Of a stretch of DNA of 36,338 bases, positions 36,088-36,338 are shown piece by piece; within the stretch, counting starts at the first letter, position 1, and each line of letters begins with the position of its first letter. The stretch spans positions 91,800 to 128,137 of the forward strand of contig JAJZQI010000007.1 in the NCBI GenBank assembly GCA_021851875.1. The letters are read 5' to 3'. Under the pieces are notes generated by a model, which was not told the DNA's origin, ran no database searches, and worked only from the letters and a program-made list of their open reading frames with translations. Source of the DNA: Pseudomonadota bacterium (GTDB taxonomy: Bacteria; Pseudomonadota; Gammaproteobacteria; Burkholderiales; JAJZQI01). Position numbers and translations under genes: made by a program.

Positions 36088-36122
36088 CAGTCCTCAGTCC
36101 TCAGTCCTCAGTCCTCAGTCCT
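36088..36122 (+). repeat. Five tandem copies of the heptamer CAGTCCT
   Basis: The 7-base unit CAGTCCT is repeated five times without a mismatch, immediately followed by TTTT and the first copy of the 76-base repeat. The reverse strand reads as AGGACTG units and contains the stop codon of the duplicated gene tail. No terminator hairpin is visible between yceI and this array. Confidence 0.92.
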
Positions 36123-36197
36123 TTTTCTTGGCGCGGGGATGTGCCGCGTCGTAAATTTTAGCTAAATGCTGACAACACGCCGCAGGCTTGTTGCGTC
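36115..36197 (-). pseudogene. Duplicated 3' fragment of the gene entering from the right edge
   Basis: Read on the minus strand this fragment encodes the same tail as the edge gene, ending CCQHLAKIYDAAHPRAKKK, then Asp and a TGA (36117-36115). Within 76 bases there is one difference from the other copy, a synonymous Leu codon (TTA for TTG). There is no start codon or ribosome binding site of its own. It lies in frame with the other copy (141 bases = 47 codons), separated by its TAG stop. Confidence 0.65.
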
Positions 36198-36338
36198 GTA
36201 GGCTAACATTTGCGAAGCAAATGTTAAGCGTAGCGGCCGGAGACAAAATCCCGGGAGGCTATTTTTTCTTGGCGCGGGGATGTGCCGCGTCGTAAATTTT
36301 AGCCAAATGCTGACAACACGCCGCAGGCTTGTTGCGTC
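36122..36338. repeat. Direct repeat pair of at least 76 bases, period 141
   Basis: Copy 1 (36122-36197) and copy 2 (36263-36338) are identical except for one base. The 65 bases between them contain a perfect hairpin, TAACATTTGC-GAA-GCAAATGTTA (36204-36226), and the blocks GCGTAGCGGC and CGGGAGGC. Copy 2 reaches the window end, so the repeat may be longer and further copies may follow. Confidence 0.92.
36259..36338 (-). CDS. C-terminus of an unknown protein (cut by window edge)
   Basis: The last 25 codons of a minus-strand gene are visible, finishing CCQHLAKIYDAAHPRAKKK with a TAG at 36261-36259. The basic tail and amphipathic HLAKIYDAA look like real coding sequence. The duplicate at 36115-36197 keeps the same peptide with one silent change. 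I do not recognise the family from this fragment. Confidence 0.55.
   Translation of the reverse strand, partial: RNKPAACCQHLAKIYDAAHPRAKKK

Follow-up and report, generated by a model that had tools for sequence, protein, structure and literature searches.

Dispersed hairpin elements with duplicated 3' gene ends in Burkholderiales: a candidate small mobile element

Introduction

Small palindromes are common in bacteria, and to our knowledge the way in which most of them move is not known. Integron cassettes combine a folded attC hairpin with a coding piece, form tandem arrays, follow a circle-like unit logic and have ends of the RYYYAAC/GTTRRRY type. The element described here shares the folded hairpin, the coding piece, the tandem arrangement and the circle-like logic, whereas its ends are not of that type. 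Rickettsia palindromic elements, for which in-frame insertion in coding genes is the rule, are likewise short palindromes; in the present family, in-frame insertion was noticed in one case (recG, L004), which is an occasional observation rather than a systematic count, and the tail-duplicated copies, unlike the Rickettsia elements, sit past stop codons together with a second gene end. Integrative islands that rebuild the 3' end of their target gene leave a gene end on both sides and keep the function of the gene. Here, too, the gene 3' end is found on both sides, and the end that is brought in would preserve gene function; however, the unit is only about 140 bp long and contains no gene, and its repeated part is target specific while its hairpin is constant.

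In the REP/RAYT system, the palindrome follows directly on GTAG or GGAG, and a Y1 (RAYT) transposase gene is often flanked by the palindromes. REP elements consist of a short palindrome, are associated with RAYT transposases and in many cases carry GTAG before the hairpin (PMC2817692). Our element resembles them in its short conserved palindrome and in stretches like TAAGCGNAGCGC, which also occur in enterobacterial REPs (PMC2817692); before its hairpin stands GNAG, with a variable second base. It differs in showing no Y1 transposase association, at most 10 pattern matches per sampled genome, head-to-tail units with gene tails and site-specific arms. The enterobacterial RU-1 and RU-2 elements are MITE-like, with stable stem-loops and TA target duplications, and they are able to fuse to the 3' ends of genes (PMC2759123). 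Small size, stable stem-loops and fusion to gene 3' ends are shared with the present element, whereas TA duplications belong to RU-1/RU-2, and a copy of the host gene's own tail is not among the features given in the part of that description on which we draw (PMC2759123). MITEs of DNA transposons have terminal inverted repeats and a short fixed target duplication; the inverted ends of our element are short (TTTCGG/CCAAAA type), their outer letters follow the target, and the flank repeats are 30-110 bp of gene. Literature searches over open-licence papers listed none with a title or opening abstract lines on an element of this kind.

The window analysed (the whole stretch, 36,338 nt) ends, in the reading that we consider reasonably probable though far from certain, in a tandem array of a small non-autonomous, probably mobile element with a spare 3' gene end. 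This reading builds on a dispersed family with a conserved structure and a position past stop codons, on the duplication of gene tails, on the complementarity of the arm, on relatives with empty sites and on tail differences like those between orthologues.

The array behind xerC

The window closes at the right end of contig C11, which belongs to a draft genome of 2.68 Mb (G000). A 76-nt direct repeat occupies positions 36122-36197 and 36263-36338, with an offset of 141 nt and a single difference, which is a silent Leu TTA/TTG change; the 65-nt spacer between the copies (36198-36262) includes a 10-bp hairpin, TAACATTTGC-GAA-GCAAATGTTA (36204-36226). An earlier note on this DNA had described a tail duplicated 141 bases apart with one silent difference, and a 65-base spacer with a perfect 10-bp hairpin and GAA loop, and both descriptions hold. 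Read on the minus strand, the last codons are AAG AAA AAA TAG in the right-hand copy and AAG AAA AAG GAC TGA in the left-hand copy. The features are as follows, the caret marking the presumed point of insertion; the GA^MAA site at outer hairpin A is putatively assigned from a rule drawn from other loci.

36088-36121, plus strand: simple repeat of the 7-mer CTCAGTC on the far border of the array, with a similar, longer run in the sister genome G001
36122-36172, minus strand: final copy of the 3' tail of xerC, on the native side, continuing to TGA at 36115-36117, with the same end in G001
36173-36193, plus strand: outer hairpin A, CAACACGCCGCAGGCTTGTTG, left of the core and after the GA of the putative GA^MAA site
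36191-36246, plus strand: conserved core, TTG-C-GTC ... AGGCTAAC-stem-GTTAAGCGTAGCGGCCGGA-GAC-AA, defined by core comparison and covariation
36198-36262, no strand: 65-nt spacer, with most of the core and the post-stop flank
36204-36226, no strand: inner 10-bp hairpin with GAA loop, which is helix 2 of the covariation analysis
36263-36338, minus strand: next xerC tail copy with stop TAG and the start of the next unit, which carries on in contig C42

Each array unit consists of the xerC 3' tail and the conserved hairpin. The earlier note had read the repeat as the last 25 codons of a gene at the window's edge; the repeat is real, but only 17 of these codons are xerC codons, the remaining 8 falling in the non-coding part of the unit, and xerC itself (TIGR02224) sits outside the window on contig C42, which terminates in the same repeat. 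In G001, xerC is followed on a single contig by two elements, of which one is divergent, by a single copy of the tail, by 7-bp repeats in a row and by yceI in reverse orientation; the YceI of the window belongs to PF04264, and the last tail copy ends alike in both genomes (AAGAAAAAGG). The G001 contig, on which xerC, the array and yceI are linked, makes it most likely that C42 and C11 carry opposite ends of a single tandem array built from 141-bp units. It also shows that the duplication is not an assembly artefact, which the earlier note had named as something that would refute its reading. Arrays of the element also explain some contig breaks at gene ends, namely C11/C42 in G000 and C8/C136 in G001. 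The CTCAGTC repeat adjoining the array reaches a much greater length in the sister species G001.

The direct match across the window element (68 nt) scores 65.5, compared with a maximum of 12.5 in 30 shuffles. The window stretch matched none of the plasmid sequences searched, and among viral contigs there was one matching stretch.

Structure of the core

The core alignment comprises 34 of 37 picked sequences; L019 was omitted as doubtful, and L057 and L119 were omitted because their ends fit poorly. The core stems co-vary. In the 34 distinct cores, 91.6% of cells are paired (at most 35.7% in slid controls), and there are 90 double changes compared with 31.1 in shuffles, none of 500 shuffles being as high. 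Folding the window stretch as a single sequence is only mildly better than folding its shuffles (z -1.6 and -1.5), and the structural case rests on covariation. Among 181 cores, the basal triplets of P1 are GGC/GCC in 66, AGT/ACT in 36, GGT/ACC in 14, GTC/GAC in 5 and GAC/GTC in 4. The palindrome is preceded by GNAG with a variable second base, G11 being invariant and G8 and A10 nearly so in the 34 cores, and the core ends are TTKC-GGC and GCC-AMAA. Rfam covariance models gave no match at E<=1 in six loci (L001, L002, L003, L052, L064 and L068).

Wobble pairs bear on the strand that folds. T.G exceeds C.A at the third P1 pair (20 vs 6), as does the corresponding class in the inner stem (75 vs 47), and over all three P1 pairs T.G/G.T is found 23 times and A.C/C.A 13 times, whereas the first P1 pair alone runs in the opposite direction (1 vs 7). 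These counts hint that the written strand is the one that folds, and the hint is weak because the first P1 pair points the opposite way.

A dispersed family

The hairpin is a dispersed, order-specific family. In G000, eight exact matches to GTTAAGCGNAGCGGCC occur at six places (C11 and C42 being counted once), and serS of the same genome has a near copy of the element (L017). The family pattern, GGCNAACN{6,24}GTTAAGCGNAGCGG, matches in 30 of 399 sampled genomes of the order and in 20 of 159 genera, with at most 10 matches in any sampled genome, and the reversed pattern has no match in the same 399 genomes. When 369 genomes of the class were sampled, only the source genome matched (none of 365 from other orders). 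At least 117 element stretches lie in named genomes; among the matches listed, the named records include members of Sulfuritalea, Methylophilus, Methylotenera, Cupriavidus, Burkholderia and Curvibacter.

The family extends beyond the search pattern, since divergent cores sit behind xerC in two genomes: that of G115 (L342) represents a different core subfamily, ..GGAGACTCATG-stem-CGTGATGTCGTAGCCAAAATCC, and that of G001 (L331) is an extra divergent element. In the families f21 and f44 (L079-L099 and L068 near 1740), many copies are of a short form, GAAAAC-NNN-GTTTCGG-core, embedded in another dispersed repeat, GGCGAGGGAGCGA/ACCGCGCAACGC, of which L068 also has a stretch without the element. One core copy (L004:1485-1565, G000:C27:22521) lies in frame within recG, identified by TIGR00643 and other RecG models, and by eye adds about 25 residues.

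Position at gene ends and duplicated tails

Copies lie behind the stop codons of xerC, ftsW, serS, alaC, gapA, glmS, smpB, trpE, argF and other genes, and the same genes (serS, alaC, smpB, xerC, ftsW) are hit in different families. NCBIfam models name element loci as xerC, alanine transaminase, serS, GAPDH, glmS, ornithine carbamoyltransferase, ftsW, trpE, smpB, oxidative damage protection protein, metK, folE2, ccmE, pyruvate kinase, ribonucleotide reductase alpha subunit, acetate-CoA ligase and transketolase (a fragment below cut-off); at the transketolase, pyruvate kinase and acetate-CoA ligase loci, the flank repeat is not above background. L059 gave a VWA domain alone, and no family was matched at L100.

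A direct repeat across the element (score >=16) is present at 50 of the 184 copies with enough flank, a score that shuffle maxima reached at none of the 184 (30 shuffles each). These copies are not independent, some being array members and some regions having been picked for holding arrays; with arrays collapsed the count is 43/170, and in the named loci, which were not hand-selected, it is 22/107, compared with 20 of 3000 random positions in the same loci. The remaining 134 copies have no flank repeat at this score, and many of them are the short form within other repeats. Wherever the gene was readable, the duplicated piece is the host gene's 3' end, and in most arrays with gene tails the unit is 119-145 bp long, with a tail of the last 30-110 bp of the gene. 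The suggestion that the spacer be sought elsewhere, at gene 3' ends with duplications, was therefore a fruitful one: the hairpin family is dispersed, and a good part of it lies behind stop codons with a repeated tail.

These findings bear on a simpler account of the window, namely that of a minisatellite made by slippage behind xerC, the hairpin being an ordinary terminator. In its favour, the tandem units are nearly identical, and the adjoining 7-bp repeat also varies in length between species; nonetheless, the same core is found after many unrelated genes, spread over 20 of the 159 genera sampled, and it comes with stems that co-vary and with duplicated gene tails. We regard this account as very improbable. 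Slippage as the full explanation, which the earlier note had offered as its second option, is refuted by the spread of the core, and it may, like recombination, still set array length.

In the orientation test (173 copies), the element of tail-duplicated copies lies in the sense of the gene in 33 cases and antisense in 4. Three of the latter (L052, L186 and L242) are judged to be spurious frames because their known gene is in sense; L129 is the fourth. The xerC copies are truly antisense to the gene and, being at contig ends, lie outside this test.

In G082 and G161 (alaC) and in G113 (serS), a short second match to the gene tail is found, and further divergent copies of the element are probably present there. 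The element also lies behind glmS at L040, L058, L070, L072 and L075 (the family was checked for L070). The end of glmS is also the attachment site of Tn7.

The arm and the proposed target site

Immediately to the left of the core, many copies have a stretch that reads as the reverse complement of a gene piece starting with GAAAA or GACAA. An arm score of at least 10 is found at 30 of 87 gene-end copies, compared with 3 of 427 when arms are swapped between loci. The swapped-arm control was used in place of per-locus shuffles, whose null is weak at score 9, a value reached in 44 observed cases and by 34 of 180 shuffle maxima; at score 11, the per-locus comparison is 22 vs 3. The end letters of the element tend to track the target, GAAAA going with ..TTTC and AAAA and GACAA with ..TTGC and ACAA, with exceptions. 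The arm often matches the proximal (present) tail better than the distal one (15 vs 4.5 at L186), and it is equally good on w and w' in L064 (second copy), L100 and L068. At many sites, the resulting order is W, inverted W, W. The arm of the xerC copy in the window has no match to an upstream w (score 6.5).

Comparison with relatives

Across 46 loci, mismatches between the two tails number 60, 44 and 204 at codon positions 1, 2 and 3, respectively, counts that retain weak or doubtful loci (L044, L107, L125, L129, and L193 twice); in trpE (L147), all 10 tail differences are at third positions. The tails thus differ in the manner of orthologues rather than by local decay, as a decaying duplicate would spread its mismatches more evenly.

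For serS, G152 provides an empty site. The distal tail and downstream sequence of G024 match it at 23-27 of 30 bases, and the proximal tail at 22/30, 19/30 and 11/24, while the gene body matches at 24-29/30 except for its last 30 bases (22/30), so that divergence seems to start up to 30 nt ahead of the site. Against the more distant empty G070, the proximal tail of G024 (23/30, 19/30, 16/24) is hardly poorer than the gene body (20-27 of 30), and the contrast is small. For alaC, the contrast is modest. Compared with the empty G226, G123 matches at 20/30 and 20/30 in the proximal tail, at 22/30 and 27/30 in the distal tail and at 20-28/30 in the gene body; against G196, the proximal values are the same (20/30, 20/30) and the distal ones 22/30 and 25/30. 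For gapA, there are three units in G030 and two in G283, single matches in each of G075, G117 and G156, and empty sites in G253, G223, G192, G392 and G341. The gene bodies of G283 and G030 agree at 28-30/30, and their proximal tails are identical at the start (30/30 for the first 30 bases), after which the values fall to 24/30 and 26/30; by eye, the last tail and downstream sequence of G283 resemble those of G030, and the post-stop flank starts like the native downstream sequence. Among 19 genomes compared at xerC, tail copies occur in G000, G001 and G115, the last being from another family and carrying a different core, and no tail copy is visible within the 260 bases displayed for the other 16.

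Judged from these alignments, the downstream tail looks native at gapA, serS and alaC, and the tail in use, being more divergent, is probably foreign. A sharp insertion boundary is disfavoured by the G070 comparison at serS and by the first 30 bases at gapA. The earlier proposal of a mobile hairpin that copies 3' ends stands as far as the dispersed family with repeated tails is concerned, but it is too simple, because the two tails differ like orthologues and the native one is seemingly displaced downstream; the second tail is often no plain copy. Its further proposal, read-through to a protein with a repeated tail, finds no support, as the proximal tail ends at its own stop in the loci read.

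The same comparisons can be read without any dedicated mobility. The hairpin family would provoke template switching during replication, leading to tandem inversion duplications in which the tail is duplicated locally, and homologous recombination would then move the structures between species, with the gene body and second tail as homology arms. The order W, inverted W, W found at many sites resembles the tandem inversion duplication concept, which makes host template switching a candidate; array units are homogenised within one genome, no enzyme association was found for Y1 transposase, reverse transcriptase or integron integrase, the gapA post-stop flank opens like native downstream sequence (by eye), and the serS divergence begins ahead of the site. 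However, one conserved core at many unrelated genes and a GA^MAA site with end letters that track the target are left unexplained, and at alaC and gapA the divergence climbs at or just past the site rather than in the gene body. We hold this explanation to be rather unlikely.

A model of the unit and its spread

In the reading that we prefer, that of a small mobile element, a unit would consist of the conserved structured hairpin (core) and the last 30-110 bp of a host gene including the stop codon. It would insert at GA^AAA or GA^CAA near the gene 3' end, in the last codons, and give the order gene body, GA, unit (MAA-w, tail, stop, arm complementary to w, core), MAA-w', native tail and native downstream sequence. 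The gene would be read through the brought-in tail and end at its stop, the native tail remaining unused downstream, and the gene would survive insertion because the unit supplies its own tail and stop. The element thus seems to enter genes without harm, bringing a replacement gene end along. The reversed xerC element would fit this scheme by analogy.

The element is probably mobile. Spread may for the most part resemble homing, the unit passing as an insert from a gene of one species into the same gene of another. This would explain both the hits on serS, alaC, smpB, ftsW and xerC in different families and the orthologue-like tail differences. The arm may pair either with the target or, within a circle or an array, with the w of the unit itself. 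Tandem copies may arise from repeated insertion or from recombination between units, and host template switching at hairpins may generate new gene-specific units. Whether all of this amounts to a new class of mobile element, a minimal homing unit that combines a structured hairpin and a spare coding 3' end with a guide-like arm that is the complement of target gene sequence, and that would enter essential genes harmlessly and swap their C-terminal codons between species, is a suggestion that we put forward only tentatively. The findings suggest a little-noticed route for the exchange of C-terminal codons between species in genes such as ftsW, serS and gapA. As each site leaves a readable record (site, arm, divergent tail and displaced native tail), the mode of entry is open to testing.

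Candidate mobilisers

No association with a candidate enzyme was found when 30 genomes with the element were compared with 30 without it: Y1 transposase is present in 19 vs 21, reverse transcriptase in 10 vs 11 and integron integrase in 22 vs 19. The 'without' genomes lack only an exact pattern match (G082 and G113 have the extra tail match at alaC and serS, respectively), and the tests are weakened because this set may hold divergent elements. In the case of reverse transcriptase, a former partner or one outside the genome may have been involved. Y1 transposase is absent from G021 and G149, which have 8 pattern matches each, and the core was found at none of 20 Y1 loci.

Reverse transcriptase matters to one further explanation, RNA-based retrohoming, in which the hairpin at the mRNA 3' end would carry an arm (the complement of w) that guides insertion at w, the tail and hairpin RNA being reverse-transcribed at a nick in the target. 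In its favour, the element shares the sense of the gene in 33 tail-duplicated copies (vs 4 antisense, 3 of them judged spurious), and there is a wobble excess at the third P1 pair (20 vs 6) and in the inner stem (75 vs 47); the strand bias is nonetheless weaker across the three P1 pairs (23 vs 13), the xerC copies are antisense, and no reverse transcriptase was found in G000, G001, G021 and G283, in addition to the lack of association. We regard retrohoming as quite improbable.

The core was also considered as an attC site and rejected, as its ends are TTKC-GGC/GCC-AMAA rather than RYYYAAC and GTTRRRY pairing over 45-150 nt. Among eight regions near integrases, attC-like sites unlike the core were found in four (L324, L325, L327 and L329), and the scan gave none in L322, L323, L326 and L328, L322 being without repeats of 30 nt or more. 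Integron integrase (TIGR02249) is present in 41 of 60 chosen genomes of the order at E<=1e-60 and seems to be unusually common there.
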